Virus record (IMG/VR): IMGVR_UViG_3300032087_000618
Coordinates: 1 to 54,067 of that record
DNA: 54,067 nucleotides
DNA from: a virus
Reading direction: 5' to 3' (one strand)
Both the position numbers and the translations under genes were made by a program. Positions within the stretch are counted from its first letter, which is position 1. The number at the start of each line of letters is the position of its first letter. The notes beneath the pieces were generated by a model. It did no database searches and had not been told where the DNA came from. It saw only the letters and a program-made list of their open reading frames with translations. Of this stretch, positions 1,025 through 54,067 are shown one piece after another.

Positions 1025-2638
1025 TTACACTCCTGCTTTGTAATCTAAGAAATCTACCTGACCTTTCAAACGTTTCGTCCGTTGATCATAATATGCTGAA
1101 CCACAATCACCAGTAAGCCCTGTGAATCTAGACTTCAGGACCCTTAGGTGTATCGTGTTTCTCTCGTCTTCATTCTGTGCTATCAAGTTACGTGCAAATG
1201 TAACAATATCAAAACTAATCTGTTTGATTGAGCCAGAACCTTTGATGTCATCTATGGAAGCTAGGTGTCCCTCTTCGAAGGACTTACCTTGAGACTTACG
1301 TAGGTGGGATATGATACCCAACCAAACATCGTGCTTCTTTACAACCTTAAGTAAGTCAGACATTACAGCGTCGATAGCCTCGTTACCACTTTTACCATCA
1401 GTACCTTCTGATACTGCAATAGTAATATGGTCAAGGACTAAGTACTTGCAACCTAATAAACACAAGTTCTCTATTTGGTCTATAAGAGAAGAATCAGATA
1501 CAGCACCGTTGTGATCAAGCAAGATGAGACGATTATCTCCAAATATGCCATCAAATGCATTTCTCTCCTGTTCTTCTGTTGCGTCTTCTGGTACAAACAT
1601 TTGAATAAACTTCTGGGCAGAGTCACCAATTGATTCTTCTAGTGACACCATACCAATGTTATCCTCAGTCTCTTCCTTCAACTGTAAAATAATTTCTTTA
1701 ATCATAGTAGACTTGCCTGACCCAGTACCAGAGGTGAACAATGTTATCTCACCATGTCGCATACCCTCTAGCTTATCATTCAAACCTTTGAGGCACGAAG
1801 GGTATGGTACAGATTGTACTGTCTTGCGCTTGACATACTCTTCCCAGATAGCTTCACCACGTACCACAGCGGCAGGGGTGTAGGGTTGAGCAGACCAGAA
1901 CGCACTAATCAGGGCTTGGTGCCCATGTTTAATTAAAGTCTCACATGGATCATTTTCAGGTAGGGATGCTACCTTTACTTTATCCCAACCAATAATCTTT
2001 GCAGCATTCTCAATAGCCTTCTCGCCAGCTTCATCCTGATCAAACATAAGGATAACTGTATCAAAGGACCGCACCCACTCACGATTACTAATGAGGGGAT
2101 TTAAGTTGCTAGATGATGGTAAGGATACTACGGGGTAGATCTTCCCCCCGTGGGATAGGTTTGCTTGTGCAACTGCCATTGCGTCTAACTCGCCCTCAGT
2201 GATAACCAAAGAGCGACCACCTTGTGTAAAGGATGATTGACCAAACAGTTCAATATCAGAGAAGTCACCCTTGACCCTAAAGTCCTTAGGTAACTGACGT
2301 ATCTTATAAGCTACAACTTTGTTCTTCTTAGTGTACGGGTAGTAGTGAGCTTCTATCGTACCGTCTTGATTGTACGCTACTCGCATACCATAGTGTGCCG
2401 CGACTTGCTTTGTGATACCACGCTCTTGTACGCCACGAGTATCGTATGCATCTATCGCTTCTAAACTTTCAGTTTGCTTTGGTTGATATGATTCCTGCAT
2501 TGTATTTTCTCTTTCATTTTCAAAGGTTACTTTATGACATACGAAACATTTACCTACTCCATTAGAGTACATACCCACTCCGTCTGACGAGCCACAATGT
2601 TTACATGGCATATGCTTTACAAATCTATCTTTCTTCAT
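1025..2638 (-). CDS. T7 gp4-like DNA primase-helicase
   Basis: About 537 aa. N-terminal zinc ribbon (CKHC...CFVC, first 40 residues), then a TOPRIM primase core (VITEGELDAMAVAQA and FDQDEAGEKA) and a RecA/DnaB-type helicase with Walker A TSGTGSGKST. This order is that of phage T7 gene 4: it primes lagging-strand synthesis and unwinds the fork ahead of the family A polymerase. I prefer the ATG at 2638, which has a GGTGG five bases upstream, over the GTG at 2647. It lies between the GIY-YIG gene and the RNA polymerase gene in the replication run, all on the same strand with almost no gaps. Confidence 0.93.
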   Translation of the reverse strand: MKKDRFVKHMPCKHCGSSDGVGMYSNGVGKCFVCHKVTFENERENTMQESYQPKQTESLEAIDAYDTRGVQERGITKQVAAHYGMRVAYNQDGTIEAHYYPYTKKNKVVAYKIRQLPKDFRVKGDFSDIELFGQSSFTQGGRSLVITEGELDAMAVAQANLSHGGKIYPVVSLPSSSNLNPLISNREWVRSFDTVILMFDQDEAGEKAIENAAKIIGWDKVKVASLPENDPCETLIKHGHQALISAFWSAQPYTPAAVVRGEAIWEEYVKRKTVQSVPYPSCLKGLNDKLEGMRHGEITLFTSGTGSGKSTMIKEIILQLKEETEDNIGMVSLEESIGDSAQKFIQMFVPEDATEEQERNAFDGIFGDNRLILLDHNGAVSDSSLIDQIENLCLLGCKYLVLDHITIAVSEGTDGKSGNEAIDAVMSDLLKVVKKHDVWLGIISHLRKSQGKSFEEGHLASIDDIKGSGSIKQISFDIVTFARNLIAQNEDERNTIHLRVLKSRFTGLTGDCGSAYYDQRTKRLKGQVDFLDYKAGV

Positions 2639-2656
2639 TAAGACCACCGTTCTTCT

Positions 2657-3196
2657 TTAAGGTTCTTTATCGCTCTTCTCTTTTCCTGCGATTCCTTCTT
2701 CCTCTGAATCCGTGAGGCCTTCTTTGTCTTTCCACTCTTCTCGTATTCTATCGGAGATTGTGGACAGTCTTTCTTTTGTTTCATGGTTAACTTCTTCCTT
2801 AGGTATGAACTTAATTGCACCTATCTGTCTGTTGAGGAATACAGGTGTACCATCGGGATACTTCTCAGTAAGAACATCAAGCTCCCATTGTACCTTAACT
2901 TCCCCTGCAGACAACCCACCCCTAGTTTCAAATAACTGTAGCATCTCAAACTCAAAGTAATCCTTACCGAAGTCTTCTATAAGCTTGTTGATATGCTTAG
3001 AAGAACTACTGTATGTCTTCCAGTTAGACACTACTCTATCCTTACCCTTGCGATACTGATGGAATTGTTTACGCCCAATGTATCGTTTAGGTTCTTCAGG
3101 GTGTGTGCAAGTTATTAAATAAATAAATCCAAAGTATTCATCAGGGTCAAAGGGAGGACCGTAGTACTCCCAATGCCCTAAGTCTTGTTCACTCAT
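2657..3196 (-). CDS. GIY-YIG family endonuclease
   Basis: 179 aa. The N-terminal half shows the family signature: GFIYLIT near residue 23, RYIGRKQF near 38, an acidic residue in LSAGEVKVQWELDVL and an Asn in VFLNRQIG. The C-terminal 50 residues are charged (Lys/Glu). The start ATG overlaps the stop of the exonuclease gene (ATGA), so the two are probably translationally coupled. Such proteins are either homing nucleases or structure-specific nucleases; its fixed place between the exonuclease and the primase-helicase, without an intron or intein next to it, makes a recombination or repair role at least as likely as homing. That role is inferred. Confidence 0.75.
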   Translation of the reverse strand: MSEQDLGHWEYYGPPFDPDEYFGFIYLITCTHPEEPKRYIGRKQFHQYRKGKDRVVSNWKTYSSSSKHINKLIEDFGKDYFEFEMLQLFETRGGLSAGEVKVQWELDVLTEKYPDGTPVFLNRQIGAIKFIPKEEVNHETKERLSTISDRIREEWKDKEGLTDSEEEGIAGKEKSDKEP

Positions 3197-3960
3197 CTTA
3201 GCGTACTCCCTTCAAAGACTTCATCAAGTTTCAAAGGTTCAAAGCCATCGAAGGATCTACGCATATAGATTAAGTTGAAGCATAAGTCCAGCTTCTCTTT
3301 CCATTCTCTAGGGTGTTTCTCTCTCCATGTGGATCTAACTACATCCATCATATCTGATTGATCTACACCATCTAGTATTTTCTCAGCAGTCTTGGGGCCT
3401 ATACCTTTCAAGCCTTGAATATTATCTGAAGAGTCACCAGTCAGTAGTTGCTTGCAGAGTAGATAGTGACCTGTCTCTTCATCAATGTGGTATAAGTTCT
3501 GCTTATTAAAGTTCCAATGCCATCCGGGAATCATGTCGATATCTTTATCAACGTGTGCGATTACCCATGAGTCTCCAGCTTCGGTAGCTTCAGTAGCCCA
3601 GATAGATACTAAGTCATCTGCCTCACAACCATCTGAGGGTACACAGTCAGTTGCCCAACAGTACTCATATAGGTTGTTAAGAATATCCTTAACCTTAGGG
3701 TCCATCTCGTACTTGTTACGATTAGCTTTGTAATCATTAGTGATATCATGCCTAAAGTTACCCTTGCCTTTTACAGCAACGTAACCCCTAGAACTATTAG
3801 TGTCTCGCATTACAGCTTTCAGGGCCAAGTCAAATGTACTTTGAGCCTGAGAGTCTGAGTTAGTTGTAGCTGCGATACGATATAACATTGAGTCTGCATC
3901 AATAAAACATTTGTCAAACTCTGGTTCTTCTTTGTACTCAGTATTAGTGAACGTCAGCAT
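3193..3960 (-). CDS. 5'-3' exonuclease (T7 gp6 / FEN family)
   Basis: About 255 aa. N-terminal FIDADSMLYR gives the first metal-binding Asp cluster; GCEADDLVSIWA and HVDKDIDMIPG give the other acidic clusters; GDSSDNIQGLKGIGPKTAEKIL is the helix-hairpin-helix typical of this family. It would remove RNA primers and degrade host DNA for nucleotides. I chose ATG at 3960 because GGAG lies six bases before it; an ATG at 3987 lacks a ribosome site and would lengthen the overlap with the DNA polymerase. With the chosen start the genes overlap by 17 bases. Confidence 0.92.
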   Translation of the reverse strand: MLTFTNTEYKEEPEFDKCFIDADSMLYRIAATTNSDSQAQSTFDLALKAVMRDTNSSRGYVAVKGKGNFRHDITNDYKANRNKYEMDPKVKDILNNLYEYCWATDCVPSDGCEADDLVSIWATEATEAGDSWVIAHVDKDIDMIPGWHWNFNKQNLYHIDEETGHYLLCKQLLTGDSSDNIQGLKGIGPKTAEKILDGVDQSDMMDVVRSTWREKHPREWKEKLDLCFNLIYMRRSFDGFEPLKLDEVFEGSTLR

Positions 3961-9010: not shown

Positions 9011-9277
9011 CTAGTCCTCCAAAAGTTGTTCAACTAGTACAGCATAGCCTGCAATATCATGCCAGCTATCTGCGTATGTCGGGTCTCCATTAAGGATACG
9101 TGCTACCTTATGCTGTATCATTTCAAGAGATTCTCTTTGGTGTGGTTGTAGGTCATGCCATCCGGGGGTTACACGCATAACATATTTCAAATCTTGACTT
9201 AGTTTACTTTGAGTTTCAAAAGAACCGTAACGGTTTCCACGGGTCTCTAATGTTTCTTCTGTTTTAGTGGCTTGCAT
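9011..9277 (-). CDS. DUF6378-type phage protein
   Basis: 88 aa, with the pattern ETRGNRYGSF...PGWHDLQPHQRESLEMIQHKVARILNG-DPTYADSWHDIAGY, which I recall as the DUF6378 family found in many phages. The conserved His and acidic residues and the all-alpha look resemble MazG-type nucleotide hydrolases, but that resemblance is an inference. It lies inside the nucleotide-metabolism run and its start overlaps the upstream 58-aa gene. Confidence 0.75.
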   Translation of the reverse strand: MQATKTEETLETRGNRYGSFETQSKLSQDLKYVMRVTPGWHDLQPHQRESLEMIQHKVARILNGDPTYADSWHDIAGYAVLVEQLLED

Positions 9278-9440
9278 GTTTACTCGACTCCTCTAGTGAC
9301 TGTATGCAATCTAGAACATAAGCAGATAGTTGAAATGCTTTGCTTTCTTCATCTACTAACTCTAAAGAGTCAGACTCAAAGCTTACTGAAACTGAATCAT
9401 TCTCTTCTGTATCTTTTAAACGTATTGTATAGCTTGCCAT
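9264..9440 (-). CDS. Small acidic hypothetical protein (58 aa)
   Basis: Not recognised. Frame from ATG 9440 to TAA 9264, preceded by GGAGG with suitable spacing. Begins MASYTIRLKDTEENDSVSVS, strongly acidic, ending QSLEESSKHASH. It overlaps the DUF6378-type gene by 14 bases and follows the thioredoxin gene with a one-base gap, so it belongs to the same transcript. Confidence 0.7.
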   Translation of the reverse strand: MASYTIRLKDTEENDSVSVSFESDSLELVDEESKAFQLSAYVLDCIQSLEESSKHASH

Positions 9441-9441
9441 A

Positions 9442-9714
9442 TTAGTTACCTCCAGCGGTAATGAATCCTTTTATAGCGGCATCAGTATGATTAGCACCCC
9501 TCAGTACATCTCTTATAGTACCGGGAGCATCCTCTTTAATTAAGAGGGGTATTGATTTAATATTATATTGCATAGCAAACTCTTTACCTCTGTCAGTCCC
9601 TATGTCCATTAAGATTATGTCATCATAAAGTCCAAGTTTTTGTAGCCTATCTTTCATTTGGGTACATCCGGGGCATCCGGGGCCAGTTACTAATACTAGT
9701 CTATCCCTCTTCAT
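9442..9714 (-). CDS. Thioredoxin/glutaredoxin-like protein
   Basis: 90 aa. The redox motif CPGC stands at residues 14-19 (GPGCPGCTQM), the cis-Pro loop is NIKSIPLLI, and the length fits a minimal thioredoxin fold. It could reduce the C-terminal Cys pair of the phage RNR, or act as a processivity partner of the DNA polymerase as host thioredoxin does in T7; neither can be decided from sequence. It overlaps the upstream 70-aa gene by 14 bases. Confidence 0.85.
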   Translation of the reverse strand: MKRDRLVLVTGPGCPGCTQMKDRLQKLGLYDDIILMDIGTDRGKEFAMQYNIKSIPLLIKEDAPGTIRDVLRGANHTDAAIKGFITAGGN

Positions 9715-9913
9715 GCTCTATCTCCATGTAGATATTACCCCAAGTTATTGTGAGTAATGGTAATAAAATAACTACCCCTTGGAAAGGGAATGCTTCTAAG
9801 GTACCATCTTCTGTATAGCCCCATACTGGCCTGCTATCACAGAACTCAATGTCGATACCTGTACCATTACGATACTCTGCTGTTAACAATTTTCCTAAAA
9901 ACTTAATGCTCAT
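9701..9913 (-). CDS. Hypothetical protein (70 aa)
   Basis: Not recognised. MSIKFLGKLLTAEYRNGTGI at the start, a hydrophobic stretch FPFQGVVILLPLLTITWG in the second half that could be buried or membrane-associated, and an acidic end (MEIEHEEG). It is the first gene after the terminator and TGTCGGT-repeat segment at 9930-10031, so it may start a transcription unit that runs on through thioredoxin and thyX. Confidence 0.55.
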   Translation of the reverse strand: MSIKFLGKLLTAEYRNGTGIDIEFCDSRPVWGYTEDGTLEAFPFQGVVILLPLLTITWGNIYMEIEHEEG

Positions 9914-9932
9914 TTGCGTGTGTCCTCACAGT

Positions 9933-9998
9933 TGTCGGTGCCCGAAAGCCCGTGTCGGTTGTCGGTGCCTGAAAAAAAATGCAAGTGTAGGTGTCGGT
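9933..9998. repeat. Cluster of four TGTCGGT heptamers
   Basis: TGTCGGT occurs at 9933, 9953, 9960 and 9992 (ACCGACA on the transcribed strand) just upstream of the 70-aa gene. Two further copies flank the double terminator at 18395 and 18440. Both sites sit between a minus-strand terminator and the next gene. The arrangement suggests an operator, processing or polymerase-binding site; function unknown. Confidence 0.5.
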
Positions 9999-10003
9999 GT
10001 TGC

Positions 10004-10031
10004 AATAAAAAGAGGGGCATCAAAGCCCCTT
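10004..10031 (-). terminator. Rho-independent terminator
   Basis: On the minus strand AGGGGC, a TTTGAT loop and GCCCCT form a perfect short stem (10013-10030) followed by CTTTTTATT. It closes the transcript coming from the TerS-like gene. Confidence 0.8.
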
Positions 10032-10112
10032 CTAAAAAGTGAGGGTTTTATTATTTAAGGACGGATAACCCACAACCATGTCCTCGGGTAACACCTTTAC
10101 CGTCACGGACAT
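10032..10112 (-). CDS. Possible 26-aa peptide
   Basis: Frame ATG 10112 to TAG 10032 encodes MSVTVKVLPEDMVVGYPSLN plus six residues and ends directly at the terminator stem. The amino acid pattern looks like a coding peptide, but the ribosome site is weak (AAGG two bases from the ATG) and part of the frame lies in an inverted repeat. It may instead be a structured leader. Low confidence. Confidence 0.25.
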   Translation of the reverse strand: MSVTVKVLPEDMVVGYPSLNNKTLTF

Positions 10113-10113
10113 G
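10077..10113. other. Imperfect inverted repeat (possible structured RNA)
   Basis: CATGTCC (10077-10083) pairs with GGACATG (10107-10113); inside, GGTAA (10087-10091) pairs with TTACC (10097-10101) over a five-base loop. The whole 37-base element lies in the 265-base gap between the TerS-like gene and the 70-aa gene, which otherwise holds only the terminator, the TGTCGGT repeats and two very short frames. Confidence 0.4.
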
Positions 10114-10179
10114 ACCTTATTAAAGGTAGTGTGCAATCATGTTTCCATGTACCCTGTTGCAATACTCCGAATCCATTTC

Positions 10180-10614
10180 TTATCCACCACTTAATCTATC
10201 TATCTCAGCTTGTAACTCTTCATCAGTTAGATCAGTATAGTCAAAGTTAGTATTAACATTCTCTGATCTTTGTAACTTAGGTTGTTCATACTCAGCTACA
10301 ATTGATGCTAGTCTAGATGCTTCAACCATATCGTCTTCCGATATAGACTTTAGCATGGCTAGCTTCATAACCGTAAGACCCTTAGGTATAGAATCCATCA
10401 GGCTATCTGATAAGTTGTTTACTAGATTAAGAACATCTTTCATTTGTTCTTTCATTTGCTCATTTTTAATCCTAGCTTCAGTAGCTTTCTGACTCATCAT
10501 TGCCATATGCTCTTTGTCGTGCCTTGGCTTTAGATTAGCTAATGAATTAGGGTGTATCTTTTTCTTACCTTCCTTCACATCATCTTGAGTGAAGATCTTT
10601 TCTTGAGTTGACAT
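10180..10614 (-). CDS. Candidate terminase small subunit
   Basis: About 144 aa from ATG 10614, which has GGAGG five bases upstream (an ATG at 10626 is possible but lies before that site). Features: basic N-terminal HPNSLANLKPRHDKEHM, a long helical centre with a coiled-coil look (KNEQMKEQMKDVLNLVNNL), and an acidic tail DLTDEELQAEIDRLSGG of the kind seen at the end of many TerS proteins. No TerS gene is visible next to the large subunit at 20133. Assignment is by general resemblance only; a scaffold or DNA-binding role remains open. Confidence 0.4.
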   Translation of the reverse strand: MSTQEKIFTQDDVKEGKKKIHPNSLANLKPRHDKEHMAMMSQKATEARIKNEQMKEQMKDVLNLVNNLSDSLMDSIPKGLTVMKLAMLKSISEDDMVEASRLASIVAEYEQPKLQRSENVNTNFDYTDLTDEELQAEIDRLSGG

Positions 10615-11441: not shown

Positions 11442-11666
11442 TCAAGTCATGGTGTCCTCCAGTTGGTCAGTTATTTCCCAAGCAAAGTTATCCAATACCC
11501 AATGCTCAACGCAGTCAAGCACATTAACATCTCTGTGCTCTGACTTTGCTAGCTTGTAGTATGGTTCCCATTCATCAATGAGTATGCCAAGATCCGAAAT
11601 AACCGTTATGTTGCTCCGTATTTCACCGTTAACATACTCAGGTACTGCATAAGCGTACATTCTCAT
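11442..11666 (-). CDS. Hypothetical protein (74 aa)
   Basis: Not recognised. MRMYAYAVPEYVNGEIRSNI at the start, acidic, with Trp-rich helices (DEWEPYYKLAK, VEHWVLDNFAWEITDQLED). It overlaps the GGCT-like gene by four bases and is the last gene of the amidoligase block in transcription order. The AT-rich 68 bases after it hold no visible gene. Confidence 0.6.
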   Translation of the reverse strand: MRMYAYAVPEYVNGEIRSNITVISDLGILIDEWEPYYKLAKSEHRDVNVLDCVEHWVLDNFAWEITDQLEDTMT

Positions 11667-12067
11667 AGAAGATCCTTTAGTTTTACCACCTCACGATCAG
11701 ACCAATCTCCAGATTCAATCCTAGGATAATCATTGTATCCACCATCACGCAAGGTATAGGTCATTGCATTACCATAGGGAGTACTGATTACCTCCCTGTC
11801 GTAAAAGTTACTCTCACCTATACCACGGTATCCCTCCAGTCTATCGAGGCGAGAGAGGGTATCTGAGTCCACCTCGTAGACTTCTACTTTAATACTAGTA
11901 GATCCACCAGTGATACCCGGAAACCCTCCAAGTGAGAACATTTCAAACTTAGGTAACGTAAAACCTTCACCAAGAAACTTAGAGTTAGATAGCAAGACAT
12001 TGTTGCCGTTACCTTTCCTAAGTGTACCATATACTGCTACTTTATACAACTCATTTGAACCATTCAT
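11663..12067 (-). CDS. Gamma-glutamylcyclotransferase-like (GGCT/AIG2) protein
   Basis: 134 aa. The substrate-loop signature VAVYGTLRKGNGNN is at residues 10-23, and LDRLEGYRG supplies the acidic residue at the end of the fold; DGGYNDYPRIESGDW completes it. The family cleaves gamma-glutamyl amides with release of 5-oxoproline. It follows the ATP-grasp gene with a two-base gap, so it may remove or recycle gamma-glutamyl groups put on by the amide ligases upstream (inference from context). Confidence 0.85.
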   Translation of the reverse strand: MNGSNELYKVAVYGTLRKGNGNNVLLSNSKFLGEGFTLPKFEMFSLGGFPGITGGSTSIKVEVYEVDSDTLSRLDRLEGYRGIGESNFYDREVISTPYGNAMTYTLRDGGYNDYPRIESGDWSDREVVKLKDLL

Positions 12068-12069
12068 AA

Positions 12070-13335
12070 TTAACTCCGAAACACTAGTGTAGTTGGTATC
12101 TCGACTTCAAGGTGGAATGCTAGCTCCATATCAAGACCAGGTATTACTTTAATCTTACACTTGGTTCCGTCTGCAGATACATGAAACAATTCATAAACAA
12201 GGGATTGATTTACATCTTGATTATAGTAATGAGCTAAAGCATTGAGACCTTGGATGCTAGAGAACGTATTACTTTCGTCTGAAGCTAAGTCCATAAGTGT
12301 ATCAATTACAACACTATTTATATAAATGTCTCTACTACCTACTGGCTGAGGGTTATAAAGCAATGACCATCCTCTAACATGTTCAATCATTTCCTCACTA
12401 GCTGAACTAATAAAATCCCTTCCTTTAATTTCAAGCAATCTTTCAACTCTATTAGTTACTAAGGATCTTTCTTCATTACTTAGAATTGATTGTAGAGTTT
12501 CAGGTATGCTATCATTCCATACAGTTACTGGACTAGAATCCATTAAAGACTTTAACGCATGGTAGTATCTATCTCTACTAGTTTCACTATGTAATCCACA
12601 AGCAGTATTAACTTCAATAACTGTAGCAAGCTGGCGTCTTTCATTCCATATTACATCAACAGCACCAAAGTCTAAACCTAAAGCTTTTACAGCATTAACA
12701 GCATTAGATAACACTGATGGATCTGGATCAAGGTTTTGAATAGCAAATATAAAACCATTGTTTCTATTTCTAATTTGGTAATTAGCTACACCATTCATAG
12801 AAGAATCAACAGCTTTACGTTGAACAAAGATAGCTTCACCGTTGCACACATGAACACGATACTCATCACGCTTCTTCATGTACTTAGTATACAAAGGTGC
12901 TTTTGGTATAGCTTGATCAGCCCTACTATCTTCACAGTAAGGTATCAACTCAAGACCATTACCTGAATGACTTTGAACAGTATGTCTAACTACTACATCA
13001 AAGCCATCGTTGAACCATTGCCTTGCAGTACGAACACTCGTAGTCCAGTCAGGTATATTAACTTTAACCGAAGCACGTTCGTTATGATCTTCAATTGCTT
13101 GGAAGAACTTAGTCTTATGAGAAGCTAACTTGACATTCTCAGGTTTGTTAAAGACTTTAGCACTCGGTAGGTGAGACAGATCAACAGTTGAATTACCCCA
13201 ATTGATTAAGGTAAGGTCATCTCTGTCTCTTACATTTGAGTTTTCTAGTCTCATTCGTTTACAGTTAAACATATCCGCTACAACTTTAGCAGATTCACTT
13301 GCACTACTATAAGGTACTACTAATACTTTACTCAT
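12070..13335 (-). CDS. ATP-grasp ligase-like protein
   Basis: 421 aa. Central part has the pattern of ATP-grasp enzymes: VVVRHTVQSHSGNGLELI with a lid-like basic stretch (YTKYMKKRDEYRVHV), and GAVDVIWNERRQ...TVIEVNTACGL carrying the Asp, Glu and Asn that bind magnesium-ATP. The last 130 residues are unrecognised. Such enzymes join a carboxylate to an amine through an acyl phosphate. Its ATG directly abuts the stop of the glutaminase gene, and a promoter-like 13-mer (TAGTACCTTATAG) lies within its first codons at 13307-13319. Confidence 0.85.
   Translation of the reverse strand: MSKVLVVPYSSASESAKVVADMFNCKRMRLENSNVRDRDDLTLINWGNSTVDLSHLPSAKVFNKPENVKLASHKTKFFQAIEDHNERASVKVNIPDWTTSVRTARQWFNDGFDVVVRHTVQSHSGNGLELIPYCEDSRADQAIPKAPLYTKYMKKRDEYRVHVCNGEAIFVQRKAVDSSMNGVANYQIRNRNNGFIFAIQNLDPDPSVLSNAVNAVKALGLDFGAVDVIWNERRQLATVIEVNTACGLHSETSRDRYYHALKSLMDSSPVTVWNDSIPETLQSILSNEERSLVTNRVERLLEIKGRDFISSASEEMIEHVRGWSLLYNPQPVGSRDIYINSVVIDTLMDLASDESNTFSSIQGLNALAHYYNQDVNQSLVYELFHVSADGTKCKIKVIPGLDMELAFHLEVEIPTTLVFRS
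13307..13319 (-). promoter_or_regulatory. Intragenic copy of the putative promoter core
   Basis: TAGTACCTTATAG, identical over 13 bases to the core of the elements at 10634 and 19795, inside the first codons of the ATP-grasp gene. It lacks the GAGGGAG that follows the core elsewhere and encodes V-V-P-Y-S, so it could be chance. Confidence 0.25.
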
Positions 13336-14511
13336 CTAGAACATCCTTTGGGTTTCTGAGGCTAATAAAACGGAATCTTTCTTTAACAGTTTGTCAACAA
13401 CTTCTTTACGGTGCTCATTATTAACATCTGTTTCTATGACTTCGGACAGCCAAGGTTCTGATACAATCAGAGTAGGCTCACCGTTTTCATATATTAAAGT
13501 TTGAACAAGGGCAGTGTAGTAACCAGCAAGAGAATCCATAGGCTGATTGTAACACTTGATATTAACTACAGGTTTAACGTCAGTAGTTGTACCTGTCATT
13601 GTACCAACTTTATTACTAGGTTTTGCATCTGGTAAACCATGGGAGTAAAACTCAATCTCTTCATGGCTCTTAAGATTATAGTCATGCAACTTTTTATGAC
13701 CAACCTTGGTAGTTGTAGCAACTCCCTTACCCTTAGGTATAGGTGCAGATTTATAATCATAAGTATTCCAGTTGTTGTACCCGTAGTTAGCTTGGTACTT
13801 TGGCTTTGGCTTTGGTGCTAGCTTTACCTTAGTTTGTTTCATCTTAGAGGTAGCGCCCTTCAAATCAAAGGATACCATTTGACCTACAGGTAACTCATGC
13901 AGTTCATACTTTACACCATTACGTTGAAGAACTAGGTGTAGCATGTGCTCTTCGGAAGCGTAATAGTATATATCCTTATCCTTTTGCTTTGCAATAAACA
14001 TAGGTCGTTCATCATTACGAACTATATAATACTTCATTTCGTAATCATTGTACCATGTCAGAGCAAATGCACCGATGAGTTTACTAATAACATCTTTAGG
14101 ATTATCAGCAAGACCCATAGCATATGCAATATTCTCACTGTCAACAACAAAGTCTTTATGATCAGGTAGTGTTGTCTGATCTGCAAGAGTACCGTTGTGA
14201 CATAACGTTACGTTACCGTAAGTAAACGGGTGAGCGTTCGCATCATTGACTGCACCTTGAGTAGCATATCTGTTATGACCCATCAAGAAGTCAGACTTCA
14301 AGTCAGATATCATATCACTCGTAGTTGTCAGTTGAAGAAAGTCAGTAGCATTTAAAGCTCGTTTGTATGTAGTCACGACATTGTTATGATCGTTACGTGC
14401 AATACCTGTACTATGAGAACCACGTAATGCATCCACATACAGTAACTGTTTAAATACTTTGTTGCTTACATAGGTAATATCTTTACCCACAACACCTACT
14501 AATCCACACAT
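13336..14511 (-). CDS. Class II glutamine amidotransferase (Ntn-type glutaminase)
   Basis: 391 aa. Starts MCGLVGVVG, with the catalytic Cys at position 2 exposed after Met removal; GHNRYATQGAVNDANAHPF and LCHNGTL are the glutamine-binding and oxyanion motifs of the PurF/GlmS/AsnB family. The domain covers about the first 200 residues. The remainder is Lys- and Tyr-rich (KPKPKYQANYGYNNWNTYDY) and unrecognised; there is no AsnB or GlmS synthase domain, so ammonia would be passed to a separate partner, possibly one of the neighbouring ligases. Overlaps the upstream amidoligase gene by 13 bases. Confidence 0.9.
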   Translation of the reverse strand: MCGLVGVVGKDITYVSNKVFKQLLYVDALRGSHSTGIARNDHNNVVTTYKRALNATDFLQLTTTSDMISDLKSDFLMGHNRYATQGAVNDANAHPFTYGNVTLCHNGTLADQTTLPDHKDFVVDSENIAYAMGLADNPKDVISKLIGAFALTWYNDYEMKYYIVRNDERPMFIAKQKDKDIYYYASEEHMLHLVLQRNGVKYELHELPVGQMVSFDLKGATSKMKQTKVKLAPKPKPKYQANYGYNNWNTYDYKSAPIPKGKGVATTTKVGHKKLHDYNLKSHEEIEFYSHGLPDAKPSNKVGTMTGTTTDVKPVVNIKCYNQPMDSLAGYYTALVQTLIYENGEPTLIVSEPWLSEVIETDVNNEHRKEVVDKLLKKDSVLLASETQRMF

Positions 14512-15413
14512 AAATTATCCTTAAGTTTTTCCAATTGGGTTTGACCTTGGTAGTTTTCATATATCTCAGAGTGGGCTTCTCTGAAACGTGTAGTGAATAA
14601 CAAGTCCTCGCCAATGCACACACCATCGTATATCTTTTTGCGTACACGGTTAGCACTCTTTATATTCTTTACAATAAGCTTATCACTAAAGACATGCCTA
14701 AGCATTGCGATGTGCCCATCAGTACTTAGTATCTTTGGTAGATCATGTAAAGATTTAGAAGGATCTAATACAAACATCTTTAGAGATAACAAATGATTAA
14801 TCCAGTTTATTATCTCACGCTTATCACCACTACCCTTATGACCACGGAACTCAAGAGAACCAAAGGATCTTAGGGATAGAAGATTAAGAGCAGCATATTT
14901 ACTAAAGTGTCTTTCATTTACACCGCTAGGGCCAGAGTGAATAAGATCAAACAAGTTATCAATCTGATTCTTACCACGGTATAGTGACAATGAATAGATA
15001 CCTTCTTCTCTCTCTTGTCCACATATACTGAACAGGTAAGGCTCTACCATAGCATACAATATAACAAGAGATATTACTTGATCCCAGCTTAAGTCTCTTA
15101 CATCCACATGCACATGCAAGGAAGTCCTTTCGGAAAACCTTTTATCAGGTACACTTTCAAGATACTTATGCAAAGAATCAATACGTTTACAGGCAGCACT
15201 GCCACCTATAGGTCCACTGAAAACATATTCAACACCGTTATTTCTCAACGACCCATCACTTGTCATTCTCCATCCGGGTACATGGGCTGGGTTGTACATG
15301 TTTTCTATTTCAACTTCGAGACCTACCTTAGTATTAGATAGAAGCTCTCCGTTTTTAAGCTGAGGTTTAGAGTCCTCTCTGTGATTCCACAATGATTGAA
15401 CTGTGATATCCAT
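14499..15413 (-). CDS. Amidoligase (COOH-NH2 ligase, glutamine-synthetase-like fold)
   Basis: 304 aa. KVGLEVEIENM near residue 30 supplies the metal-binding E-x-E, SDGSLRNNGVEYVFSGPI follows, then TSLHVHVDV (His-x-His) and GSLEFRGHKGS with the Arg; this is the pattern of the PF12224 amidoligase family. Such enzymes use ATP to form amide or peptide bonds, but substrates in phages are unknown. It overlaps the 220-aa gene by 47 bases. A second ligase of a different subfamily lies two genes upstream. Confidence 0.85.
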   Translation of the reverse strand: MDITVQSLWNHREDSKPQLKNGELLSNTKVGLEVEIENMYNPAHVPGWRMTSDGSLRNNGVEYVFSGPIGGSAACKRIDSLHKYLESVPDKRFSERTSLHVHVDVRDLSWDQVISLVILYAMVEPYLFSICGQEREEGIYSLSLYRGKNQIDNLFDLIHSGPSGVNERHFSKYAALNLLSLRSFGSLEFRGHKGSGDKREIINWINHLLSLKMFVLDPSKSLHDLPKILSTDGHIAMLRHVFSDKLIVKNIKSANRVRKKIYDGVCIGEDLLFTTRFREAHSEIYENYQGQTQLEKLKDNLCVD

Positions 15414-16029
15414 TTGGTATAATCCTCTTTAGACTAGGTATTACATGAATTAATTTATCACTGATAGATACTGATGTACCTTTAACTACACCAACTGCAT
15501 TGTTACGATACATCAACAATGGTTTGGAGCAGAATGCAAAGTTACTAATACAGAAGTCAGATGATACAGCTCTTGCGATTTTCTCACCAGCGTCTACTAA
15601 TTCAATAGCTTCAAAGAAATCAGTATACTTTGGGTTGAATATATCATACTCCAACTTACTGCTATAATACCTAGTAGACGGGCTTAGTTGTTCAATTAGC
15701 TCATCATCGTAGGTAGTTATATGTAAATTTTGAAGTCGAAGTCCCTTCTTCCATTGCCTTGCTGCACGTCTTGAGGTATAGCACACATGATCCTTTACAT
15801 TTATCATGCCTAATGCAGGGAAGGACATCTTGAAATCGATACGTTTATTCCACAAAGGAAGTCTTATAACGTCTTGATTAGACTTCTTTACATAAGCGTA
15901 CCCATCGCAAACTTCTAACAACCTTGCTGGGTAAAACCCTTCATCATCAGGCGACTTAACTTGGATAACAGTACCCTCGTAACTTGCAGAAATGTCACGC
16001 ATGGTCATGTCACTGAAGATATTACTCAT
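15367..16029 (-). CDS. Hypothetical protein in amidoligase block (220 aa)
   Basis: Not recognised. The N-terminal 60 residues (SYEGTVIQVKSPDDEGFYPARLLEV...YVKKSNQDVIRLPLW) look like a small beta-barrel; the middle contains basic stretches (YTSRRAARQWKKGLRLQ). Its ATG overlaps the stop of the upstream amidoligase (TAATG), so it is translationally coupled to it. Position between two amidoligases suggests a substrate-binding or carrier role, but nothing in the sequence proves that. Confidence 0.65.
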   Translation of the reverse strand: MSNIFSDMTMRDISASYEGTVIQVKSPDDEGFYPARLLEVCDGYAYVKKSNQDVIRLPLWNKRIDFKMSFPALGMINVKDHVCYTSRRAARQWKKGLRLQNLHITTYDDELIEQLSPSTRYYSSKLEYDIFNPKYTDFFEAIELVDAGEKIARAVSSDFCISNFAFCSKPLLMYRNNAVGVVKGTSVSISDKLIHVIPSLKRIIPNGYHSSIIVESQRGL

Positions 16030-16835
16030 TAACTAGGTACCTCCAATTTAAGTTCATCAATAATATGCCATGCTAAACCCTGATCACTTTTGTTAATAGC
16101 TTTCTGGACAAGCTTAGGATCACATACTTTTATGTAATCTTTCAGTTTATCTAGGTTGCTAGTGGACCATAGGGTTGTATCATAGACCCAAGACATAAGC
16201 TCATCTGAGTTTAACCAGAAGTTACTTAGTGCTCGGTACTCTACACCGTATTCTTTCGGGCGCATTGTACCTGCTTTGCCATACAACTTACGTCTCTTCG
16301 CATCGGTATCTAACAGGATCGAAGGGACACCAAGGGTATAGTCCAACATCTTGACAAGAGACTCAGCACTTCCCAAGCATGGGTCATCATACCCAACATG
16401 AACATGACCACCAGCAGTCCTCAAGTTAACCTTAGACCCGTTAGGCCTCGGCATCTCACGGCCAGTCCAAGCGTTCCACTCAGAGCTGCAACCAAATTCC
16501 ATAGCGTTAGGTCCATAACTCTCAAGCATACCTTTGTCAAAGACATAACTAGGAATGATGACTGGTTGTAAGTCATTGTTTTCTAACACATTTTTCAGAG
16601 AGGTCATAACAGCATTCATGTTCTCTACAAAATCGAAGCATGTATTAGCAGGGTTAATGTTAAATTCTGCCAGCACATTGTCTTCTTGTAGGCCACCATG
16701 AGACACTGGTCTCGGTCTCTCTTTACTACCACCAACTTTACCGATAGCAGATGTGATGTTACCTGATAGGTCTGCTACAAAAACCTCAGGGTCTGCACCC
16801 ACTGTAACGTTTTCCAACTTAGATTCGTATAACAT
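16029..16835 (-). CDS. Amidoligase (COOH-NH2 ligase type 2, phiEco32 type)
   Basis: 268 aa. VTVGADPEVFVADLSGN (GxDPE) at residue 10, DNVLAEFNINPA, then TAGGHVHVGYDD and EYGVEYRALSNFWL make the pattern of PF14395, the COOH-NH2 ligase type 2 first noticed in phage phiEco32. The D-P-E, E-F-N, H-V-H and E-Y-R residues would bind magnesium-ATP as in glutamine synthetase. Together with the ATP-grasp, glutaminase and GGCT-like proteins it forms a full amide-bond tool set. Confidence 0.88.
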   Translation of the reverse strand: MLYESKLENVTVGADPEVFVADLSGNITSAIGKVGGSKERPRPVSHGGLQEDNVLAEFNINPANTCFDFVENMNAVMTSLKNVLENNDLQPVIIPSYVFDKGMLESYGPNAMEFGCSSEWNAWTGREMPRPNGSKVNLRTAGGHVHVGYDDPCLGSAESLVKMLDYTLGVPSILLDTDAKRRKLYGKAGTMRPKEYGVEYRALSNFWLNSDELMSWVYDTTLWSTSNLDKLKDYIKVCDPKLVQKAINKSDQGLAWHIIDELKLEVPS

Positions 16836-16845
16836 AGAGTAGTCC

Positions 16846-17802
16846 TCAGTTCTCTATAAGTGAAATGATTTGTTGCATTTGATCAGAAGTTATATGGCGA
16901 TTAGGTAAACTAATATAACGTAAGTCACCGAACCTGTATACACTTTCTAGCCCTAGTATATCTTTAGCTACAGTTAGCATAAAGTTACCACGACGATAAG
17001 CACTAGCACCCTTCTTGGCAAAGAACCTACCCAAACATTCTGGGTTAGACTTTGGAGCACGATGGTACTTGTTAGTATCCCGGAACAATCCTTGTATACC
17101 CTTGAACAATTTGTCATCATACTCTTCATTGACTAAACGATTCAACAGGATCTTAAGGGTTCGTACTGTGGTATACTCAGGGTACAGTACGGTACTTTCG
17201 GCACAGCTAATAGGGTTAAACATATCTAGACGATAAGCTGTATCCTTTTCCTCTGAGCCTCTAAGTTCTGGATCAGAGGTAGCTTCACCGGACTCATAGT
17301 TGTGACTTAAGGTATTGTTAAGGCCCAACGCTAATACAAATGCAGTATCCTTCTGGGCTTTATGGTATCTAACGAGACGATCCCATTGCCTAACTATACC
17401 AGCTTGAAACTGTGGTAGTCTCAACAAGAATAGAACCAACATCATTCTATCTGCAGGTACATCAGACTTAACCCTGAACCCAGACTTGTAAGCCACTATG
17501 TTATTGGGCTTCCTGCTGTCCAATATACAATCACTAATGAACGGAAGACTCATTAGATAAGACCACCACCTAGATGCTGTAGACCAGTTCATCAATGGAG
17601 ATAACCTTATATCTTCGATGTAGCATTCTGAATCTTCGCAGAATTGTTCACCAAAGAAAGGCTTGTACTTTATGTTATGAATCCGAATACCATACTCACG
17701 GTCTCTATGATCAAGTATGTTATTGATATGAGCAAAGCAAGCTCTATCATTAAACTTGAGAGTCCTTGAGTTATTAGTTACAACTTCAAATGATACACTC
17801 AT
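16846..17802 (-). CDS. Hypothetical protein in amidoligase block (318 aa)
   Basis: Not recognised. Begins MSVSFEVVTNNSRTLKFNDR; Trp- and Arg-rich middle (NWSTASRWWSYLMSLPF, VRQWDRLVRYHKAQ), and a short acidic insert (GEATSDPELRGSEEK). No signal peptide or clear membrane segment. It lies ten bases upstream of the type 2 amidoligase and its ATG overlaps the stop of a 29-aa membrane peptide gene, so it is part of the same transcript. Its length and position make it a candidate partner or substrate-recognition subunit. Confidence 0.65.
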   Translation of the reverse strand: MSVSFEVVTNNSRTLKFNDRACFAHINNILDHRDREYGIRIHNIKYKPFFGEQFCEDSECYIEDIRLSPLMNWSTASRWWSYLMSLPFISDCILDSRKPNNIVAYKSGFRVKSDVPADRMMLVLFLLRLPQFQAGIVRQWDRLVRYHKAQKDTAFVLALGLNNTLSHNYESGEATSDPELRGSEEKDTAYRLDMFNPISCAESTVLYPEYTTVRTLKILLNRLVNEEYDDKLFKGIQGLFRDTNKYHRAPKSNPECLGRFFAKKGASAYRRGNFMLTVAKDILGLESVYRFGDLRYISLPNRHITSDQMQQIISLIEN

Positions 17803-17888
17803 TCTTTGTCCTCTTGGTTAAGTTCATTACACTTAATATAAATTGAAACGATTACTGCACCTATAAACAATAATATTATATCGCCCAT
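17799..17888 (-). CDS. 29-aa single-pass membrane peptide
   Basis: Frame ATG 17888 to TGA 17799, overlapping the end of the 60-aa gene and the start of the 318-aa gene. Product MGDIILLFIGAVIVSIYIKC then NELNQEDKE: one hydrophobic helix of about 17 residues and a charged tail. Overlaps on both sides (ATG in the upstream gene, TGA sharing bases with the downstream ATG) are the usual sign of a coupled real gene. Function unknown; it could anchor the module at the membrane. Confidence 0.55.
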   Translation of the reverse strand: MGDIILLFIGAVIVSIYIKCNELNQEDKE

Positions 17889-18058
17889 TTGTCCATCACC
17901 TTTTCAACACGTAAAAAGAATTTAACAATATGAACACGTATCCTATCAAGGTCTTCGGCACTAGCTCTGCCTTGGTATCCATTGATGTGGTGTACGTAAC
18001 GTGCAATAGCTGCACCTCTCAACTTGTTATCATCTATATCAGCAAAGTTAAACTCCAT
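17876..18058 (-). CDS. Small hypothetical protein (60 aa)
   Basis: Not recognised. MEFNFADIDDNKLRGAAIAR at the start, then HHINGYQGRASAEDLDRIRV and a basic helical end (FFLRVEKVMDKW). Overlaps the upstream 99-aa gene by 11 bases. Looks like a small all-helical protein. Confidence 0.6.
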   Translation of the reverse strand: MEFNFADIDDNKLRGAAIARYVHHINGYQGRASAEDLDRIRVHIVKFFLRVEKVMDKWAI

Positions 18059-53013: not shown

Positions 53014-54067
53014 TTAGCTAAAGAAGTAGTCAGAACTAATGACTTCCTCTATCTTAAGATCACCCAGCTCTGGTTGCTTAACTGAGTAACCCTTACGGTC
53101 TTCTAGGATTAAAGATTCTATCTTATCAAAGAAGTTTTCTACATTGTACATCATAGCAAACTGCCACTTAGTATGCTCTAGTAGTTTGTCTACATCACAA
53201 GCATGGGTTGAGAACGAATCATGTACTGCCCCAAAGCTCCCAGGGAATGATTCGATAACCTTAGCCATATGTGATGCATCCATAGAGTGTACAAAGTTAG
53301 GCGAACAGCCTGATGCAAACGACCTTCGGCAGGGTATAGCATTACCTTCTTTATTTATTACAGGTATCTTTATGCTATGACCTATCTGCCCTAGGCCACC
53401 TATGGTACTGCGTAGTGTCAAGTTCTTTTGTTTCCATACTTCGTATAGCACAGGGAAACCTGACGGTGTAGTCCACTGAAGGCATGTCTCTCCACTTTCA
53501 AGAACATAGTCTGTTATTTTCTGGAGAAACTTCATGGTCTTTAGGGGACCTACACAGGTATCATTAATGGCTAGTATAAGGTTCTTTGCCAGAACATCAC
53601 AGTCTTCCTTTGTGATCTTATACTTCCTATGATAACCCTCTGTCTTACAATCGTAAAACATATTCTCTGCAATCTTTCTTTGACCTGCAGAGTACGCCCT
53701 TGTCATTGAGCCACGTTTAGCTATGCCCTTTCTGATAGCTTTCATAGGCATATTTCTTTGCTCAAACCACTCAGGCATTCTATCAATCAAACGTTTCGCA
53801 ACCTTTACATAGAAGTCTTTTTGTATACTCTGAGGAACAATTGAGACTAACTTACCAGCCTGACTGTCCTTAGACATCGCAGCCAGATGCTGCCAGCCAT
53901 TGTTACTTCCATCTACAGGTATAGGTAGTCTCGAATGATAGACTCCCTCGGACTCTACGTAGCCTTTGAGATCAAGACAACATGCCAGTAGGGACACTGG
54001 CTTTTCTGCTTCCATCCTGAACTTCATCTCTTTTGCATCCTGTATCAGTTCTTTCTGATTGTGGATT
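53014..54067 (-). CDS. T7-like single-subunit RNA polymerase, C-terminal part (cut by window edge)
   Basis: About 351 codons, entering at 54067 and ending with stop at 53014. Palm and finger motifs of T7 RNA polymerase are complete: PVDGSNNGWQHLAAM (motif A Asp), AKRGSMTRAYSAGQ (motif B Lys and Tyr), SGCSPNFVHSMDASHM, AVHDSFSTHA (motif C His-Asp), and the C-terminal SDYFFS like T7 SDFAFA. Together with 1-1023 the protein is about 695 aa, smaller than T7 (883). The reading frame at 54067 does not join the frame at position 1 exactly: two bases plus probably about five codons are absent by comparison with T7. Confidence 0.93.
   Translation of the reverse strand, partial: IHNQKELIQDAKEMKFRMEAEKPVSLLACCLDLKGYVESEGVYHSRLPIPVDGSNNGWQHLAAMSKDSQAGKLVSIVPQSIQKDFYVKVAKRLIDRMPEWFEQRNMPMKAIRKGIAKRGSMTRAYSAGQRKIAENMFYDCKTEGYHRKYKITKEDCDVLAKNLILAINDTCVGPLKTMKFLQKITDYVLESGETCLQWTTPSGFPVLYEVWKQKNLTLRSTIGGLGQIGHSIKIPVINKEGNAIPCRRSFASGCSPNFVHSMDASHMAKVIESFPGSFGAVHDSFSTHACDVDKLLEHTKWQFAMMYNVENFFDKIESLILEDRKGYSVKQPELGDLKIEEVISSDYFFS

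Follow-up and report, generated by a model that had tools for sequence, protein, structure and literature searches.

What does a phage build with three families of ATP-consuming ligase, a glutaminase and an enzyme that strips off gamma-glutamyl groups, all encoded in one operon? The question is raised by IMGVR_UViG_3300032087_000618, a virus record of 54,067 bases from a marine phage (IMG/VR records may be fragments), whose full length is called the window here. All module genes lie on its minus strand in one packed run from 17888 to 11663, neighbours being -47 to +10 nt apart, in agreement with the tight operon described in an earlier note made from the sequence alone. The gene order is a 29-amino-acid (aa) micropeptide, the 318-aa protein U318, a COOH-NH2 ligase, a 220-aa protein, an amidoligase, a class II glutamine amidotransferase-fold enzyme (GAT), an ATP-grasp ligase and a gamma-glutamyl(amine) cyclotransferase (GGCT). 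One of two unrelated gamma-glutamyl-removing enzymes, GGCT or a C26 protein, accompanied every complete set of these genes, and a temporary glutamate tag is therefore the probable basis on which the product is made.

A gamma-glutamyl-removing enzyme in every complete locus

We collected 121 distinct loci and regarded 68 of them as complete, namely those with at least 4 kb to either side of the core. All of these (68/68) carried the two ligases, the class II GAT and the ATP-grasp. A random distribution of the genes, which the earlier note had named as the outcome that would speak against a module, was thus not seen, and the constant company of the core genes together with their conserved catalytic residues bears out its term "amide or peptide synthesis module". 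GGCT, unlike the core genes, does not belong to the constant set; its alternation with a PuuD-like C26 protein, which the sequence of the window could not show, tells more about the chemistry than the mere occurrence of GGCT. The C26 protein, found in other modules, has the class I GATase fold (PF07722), and its Cys-His-Glu triad was intact in 20/20 sequences, with a GICRGxQ motif. Among the NCBIfam models closest to it are those of the gamma-Glu-GABA and gamma-Glu-CDP-amidate hydrolases; assignment as a PuuD equivalog was rejected (22.9 bits against the NCBIfam cut-off of 266).

GGCT alone occurred in 23 complete loci, C26 alone in 31, both in 14 and neither in 0, so that all 68 contained a gamma-glutamyl-removing enzyme. 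Under independence, about 10 of the 68 would be expected to have neither (Fisher p 8e-9, a value that ignores kinship). When mapped on a tree built from the COOH-NH2 ligase and the ATP-grasp ligase, GGCT changed at least 9 times and C26 at least 8 times, and simulated independent evolution with matched totals gave zero "neither" loci in 0/753 runs (mean 10). Pfam scans of 50 whole records found at least one of the two enzymes in 48, the two exceptions being records that end beside the module, and in the genome_contigs set, which is separate, C26 was present in 8/8 loci with margin. In the order U318-X-GAT-COOH-220-AMID-GRASP, X was C26 in 15 loci and GGCT in 4; two unrelated folds fill the same slot in otherwise identical gene orders. 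Few phages have a C26 homologue (63 records), and most of those that do are of the module type.

Enzymes and companion proteins of the operon

The genes in this part of the window are as follows.

11442-11666, minus strand: 74-aa open reading frame (ORF), clade-specific, 4-nt overlap with the end of the GGCT gene (57% with locus L047, 35% with locus L100)
11663-12067, minus strand: GGCT/GGACT-type gamma-glutamyl(amine) cyclotransferase, 134 aa, PF06094, catalytic Glu78
12070-13335, minus strand: RimK/cyanophycin-synthetase-like ATP-grasp ligase, 421 aa, phrog_2599
13336-14511, minus strand: class II GAT, 391 aa, PF13522
14499-15413, minus strand: GS/GCS-fold amidoligase (Amidoligase_2), 304 aa, PF12224
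15367-16029, minus strand: core protein phrog_11055, 220 aa, N-terminal Tudor/SH3-like small barrel
16029-16835, minus strand: COOH-NH2 ligase type 2 (GS/GCS-like), 268 aa, PF14395
16846-17802, minus strand: U318, module-specific family, 318 aa; three seeds converge on one family
17799-17888, minus strand: micropeptide with a single transmembrane segment, 29 aa, acidic C-terminus, clade-specific accessory
17876-18058, minus strand: 60-aa ORF upstream in the same gene run, clade-specific (57% identical in L047)

Ribosome-binding sites are plausible for most module genes. Counts of promoters and terminators within the operon did not exceed those in shuffled sequences, and only short, imperfect repeats were seen there. 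No Pfam or PHROGs family matched the 60-aa ORF.

Conservation was counted over 60-120 distinct loci per family, and the catalytic positions of all five enzyme families were conserved at 95-100%. Judged by these residues, the enzymes look active, and the loss of active sites that the earlier note had named as refuting its proposal was not found. Its enzyme calls are all supported by Pfam and PHROGs. GGCT matched PF06094 (GGACT) with an E-value of 1.5e-22 (80.9 bits, family cut-off 22.8) and kept E78 (LxxLEGY motif) and YG in 60/60 loci; relatives in the PDB are YtfP and AIG2-like proteins. The amidoligase matched Amidoligase_2 (PF12224) above the cut-off (E 3.5e-6), with G31, E33, E35, E62, H100, H102, E188 and R190 at 100% over 118 loci. 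For the COOH-NH2 ligase (COOH-NH2_lig, PF14395, E 7.9e-11), D15, E17, D52, E57, H144, R192, E199 and R201 were conserved at 100% and H146 at 99% (108 loci); one homologue also matches GCS2 (PF04107).

The ATP-grasp call likewise stood: the protein falls below the Pfam R2K cut-offs (21.3 bits against 26.2, and 18.8 against 26.3) and was filed simply as ATP-grasp, with a clear PHROGs match (phrog_2599, E 1.7e-65), PDB relatives RimK and CphA, and K74, E158, R160, K174, D227, E241 and N243 at 99-100% over 120 loci. It was rejected as a RimK S6 glutamate ligase (17 bits against the NCBIfam rimK_fam cut-off of 143.4). The predicted class II glutaminase with Cys2 was recovered as GATase_6 (PF13522, E 2.3e-14); its N-terminal Cys nucleophile and glutamine pocket (C2, R81, N106, G107, D124) were invariant in 107/107 loci. 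The GAT domain is the sole Pfam match of this protein, and the C-terminal ~190 aa carry no Pfam assignment. Many homologues (phiEco32, 7-11, CW02 and others; loci L003, L005 and L002) have zinc-ribbon-like CxxC pairs in this part; the GAT of the window is shorter and without them. The locus of Rhizobium phage N3_13 (L007) has two class II GAT-like genes flanking the ligases (2488-3624 and 9065-10201), the former, as annotated, without an N-terminal Cys. PADLOC matched none of the module proteins to a known anti-phage defence family.

The 318- and 220-aa proteins had been listed as unknown, which fits U318 in so far as neither Pfam nor NCBIfam matched it and its PHROG match was weak. It is not an orphan, however: three independent seeds recovered one family (110-112 ORFs, 65 distinct), found in 39/68 complete loci and usually encoded by the first module gene, with Cys22 conserved at 99% and Arg128 at 100%. 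Named fold matches in BFVD (E <= 0.001) came from CVT22, GAP52, CW02 and Aeromonas phage 4_4572, all module carriers or close relatives of carriers; a fold search of the PDB gave no match (best Foldseek E 0.66, VIA Z 3.8). With its Cys and Arg, U318 is a possible extra catalyst.

The 220-aa protein belongs to phrog_11055, a family that its profile finds in 60/68 complete loci, nearly always between the genes of the COOH-NH2 ligase and the amidoligase. In its AF2 model (pLDDT 94.7), residues ~5-70 are similar to Tudor/SH3-like barrels, with VIA Z-scores of up to 5.6; Foldseek gave no PDB match at E <= 0.001, and VIA matches covered only the N-terminal part. The nearly invariant residues, G74 and R91, give no hint of an enzyme. 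The probable role of this protein is that of a subunit for binding or scaffolding.

Close relatives of the window confirm the 29-aa membrane peptide. Peptides of 26-31 aa with a single transmembrane segment and an acidic tail (QEDK, KDE, KDD) precede the 318-aa gene in six of them (L047, L100, L121, L123, L129 and L130), and the peptide is limited to this clade. As it is conserved only there, a role as ribosomal carrier peptide was rejected; it would not be a module-wide acceptor.

Distribution of the module among phages

Matches among 50,697 phage records numbered 309 for the ATP-grasp, 312 for the COOH-NH2 ligase and 338 for the GAT, the first two in nearly the same genera and nearly the same numbers. 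The set is thus carried by about 310 records and was described in 2009, and calling it a "striking combination", as the earlier note did, was an overstatement. Iyer et al. 2009 reportedly predicted that the phage amidoligase set makes or modifies peptides; no module product was reported in the literature that we found. Related sets had correctly been placed in phiEco32-like phages: carriers include phiEco32, UFV-P2, PaP3, 7-11, CW02, CVT22, Rhizobium phage N3_13, a Cellulophaga crAss-like phage and others, from the phiEco32, 7-11, PaP3/LUZ24-like, PA11-like and Zobellviridae groups. The module adjoins replication genes. In the phiEco32/LUZ24-like operon, which corresponds to ORF19-29 of UFV-P2 (PMC3890496), the enzymes are the same; the COOH-NH2 ligase, a ~190-aa protein and the amidoligase are adjacent in the same order, and GAT, ATP-grasp and GGCT come next, as here, but protein identity is only 25-45%. 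Upstream, the window's clade encodes a single 318-aa protein plus the micropeptide, whereas 7-11 has two tandem U318-family members. PA11-like, CVT22 and Rhizobium N3 modules share the core of ligases, GAT and ATP-grasp and have the PuuD-like C26; no GGCT was found in the CVT22 and N3_13 loci.

Outside phages, the COOH-NH2 ligase is hardly ever found. It is encoded on more than 500 IMG/VR contigs, and among the 84,980 species of genome_contigs it was found on 12 contigs from uncultured genomes, 10 of which also carried module genes; a cellular operon that might reveal the product was therefore rejected as a lead. A contig of a Deltaproteobacteria metagenome-assembled genome (L200) has two genes for remote COOH-NH2 ligase-like proteins as well as one for an amidoligase, the other core enzymes being absent from the fetched stretch; this could be a cellular or a divergent phage version. 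The record of Vibrio phage V07 (MT135025.1, L008; 349 kb, marked UNVERIFIED) holds a module whose C26 gives a match equal in identity and score to those of ~50-kb Vibrio podophages, and may be a chimeric assembly.

By its portal protein, the nearest sequenced phage to the window is Roseobacter phage CRP-7 (51%). Capsid and replication genes match as well, yet CRP-7 is without the module, which is therefore a unit gained or lost between related phages. A T7-like RNA polymerase gene is divided between the ends of the record (1-1044 and 53014-54067, minus strand), and both parts match the RNA polymerase of CRP-7. This pattern fits a permuted or circular genome; direct end-to-end joining would give a one-base frame offset in the gene, so that one of the ends may be off by a base.

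A proposed gamma-glutamyl-protected pathway and its rivals

We favour, with a probability of roughly 0.55, a phage-specific pathway in which a gamma-glutamyl-protected intermediate serves for the assembly of a small amide or short peptide and is later deprotected. GS/GCS-fold ligases typically activate the gamma-carboxyl of glutamate, and gamma-glutamyl amides are cleaved by cyclotransferases of the GGACT type as well as by hydrolases of the PuuD type. In the substrate, step order and product that we infer, one GS/GCS-fold ligase would join the glutamate gamma-carboxyl to an amine, the ATP-grasp and the second ligase would add further amino acids or amines, and the class II glutaminase-fold enzyme would supply ammonia or handle gamma-glutamyl groups. 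The gamma-glutamyl group would be removed last, by GGCT as 5-oxoproline in this phage and by the PuuD-like C26 hydrolase in others.

The need for GGCT or C26 is what such a protected pathway predicts, as in butirosin synthesis and putrescine breakdown. In the butirosin side chain, BtrJ (ATP-grasp) adds gamma-Glu and BtrG (GGACT-type cyclotransferase) removes it, and the module shares this pairing of ligase and remover for temporary protection; in contrast to butirosin, it has no visible carrier protein, and a class II GAT and a further two GS-fold ligases are present in addition. In the Puu pathway, PuuA is a GS-fold ligase and PuuD a C26 hydrolase, again a gamma-glutamyl ligase paired with its remover, and the gamma-Glu-CDP-amidate hydrolase of Campylobacter offers a further C26 remover. 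However, the phage C26 scores 23 bits where the equivalog cut-offs are 250-266, and the module has no oxidase, dehydrogenase or kinase partner.

Several points weigh against the protected pathway. The loci were chosen by similarity to the proteins of this phage, and remote versions are under-sampled; unconditioned simulations reach zero "neither" loci in 15% of runs, and a strict independent-pairs test had only 3 pairs and was underpowered. With 14 loci holding both, GGCT and C26 are not strictly interchangeable; each fold might have small-molecule substrates of its own, or C26 might serve as another glutaminase. Profile comparison detected no likeness between the two GS-fold ligases, and no copy of the module has a substrate, a product or activity in vitro on record. 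A bolder version is put forward only tentatively: the pathway would be exclusive to viruses, its COOH-NH2 ligase and 318-aa families would lack cellular counterparts, its product would be a new gamma-glutamyl-protected amide or peptide that many unrelated phages require during infection, and the 318-aa protein would be a new cysteine-dependent enzyme.

Regarding purpose, the module of PaP3 (ORF42-48) belongs to the middle genes with peak expression at 10-30 min, ORF49 and above being early (PMC4707531), and the ATP-grasp, GAT and GGCT proteins of SU10 were detected by mass spectrometry and classed as early (PMC4281155). Most likely, the module makes an intracellular product that serves takeover or helps to evade defence in the early to middle phase of infection, and that is neither a virion part nor a wholesale DNA modification.

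An intracellular product or a protein tag is likeliest. Tagging of host proteins, to which the RimK/R2K-like ATP-grasp and the amidoligases would add amino acids while GGCT or C26 recycles or trims gamma-glutamyl links, seems rather unlikely all the same: it fits the obligate GGCT-or-C26 step less well because characterised members of both families mostly act on small gamma-glutamyl amines, and no conserved acceptor protein was found. What speaks for it is the kinship of the ATP-grasp with RimK and R2K, the prediction that R2K enzymes modify proteins (Burroughs et al. 2015; PMC4431377), and the Tudor/SH3-like barrel, which could bind protein or RNA. The ligases might instead put amino acids or amides on envelope precursors (cell surface, peptidoglycan) and so block superinfection, an idea attributed to Iyer et al. 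2009, whose prediction citing papers give as cell-wall modification or secondary metabolites (PMC10580990). This is in keeping with the membrane micropeptide, but the latter is only clade-specific. Neighbour clustering over the 121 loci gave no widely shared family besides replication genes, and no cluster was recognised as membrane, lipid-carrier, sugar or transport family, which weakens the surface idea; we think it unlikely.

Ammonia, glutamate or 5-oxoproline is set free by glutaminases and by enzymes that remove gamma-glutamyl groups, and the set could accordingly be auxiliary metabolism in which glutamine and gamma-glutamyl compounds are broken down to supply nucleotide synthesis. Such salvage of nitrogen or glutamate is very improbable given that three ATP-consuming ligase families are always kept and that the COOH-NH2 ligase, unlike host-derived metabolic genes, is nearly absent from cellular genomes. 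We give hardly any credence to an amino-acid adduct on phage DNA: although replication genes adjoin the module, the neighbour clusters contained no base-modifying partner family, and wholesale hypermodification is disfavoured because DNA of LUZ24-like carriers is cut by EcoRI, HindIII, Sau3A and AluI (PMC3634792), BamHI (PMC8540360), and RsaI, HpaI, EcoRV, SmaI and HaeIII (PMC3517423).

The module itself was already known; new here are the GGCT-or-C26 pattern, the residue conservation, the U318 family, the 220-aa barrel and the near-restriction of the COOH-NH2 ligase to phages. Among the enzyme sets of podovirus-like phages that lack an explanation, the module is one of the most common, and it has been without a product since 2009. 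The GGCT-or-C26 rule narrows "some amide" to a concrete chemical prediction, a gamma-glutamyl intermediate, which should build up without GGCT and should be relieved by rescue with the C26 enzyme, a prediction open to test in phiEco32-like and LUZ24-like phages.

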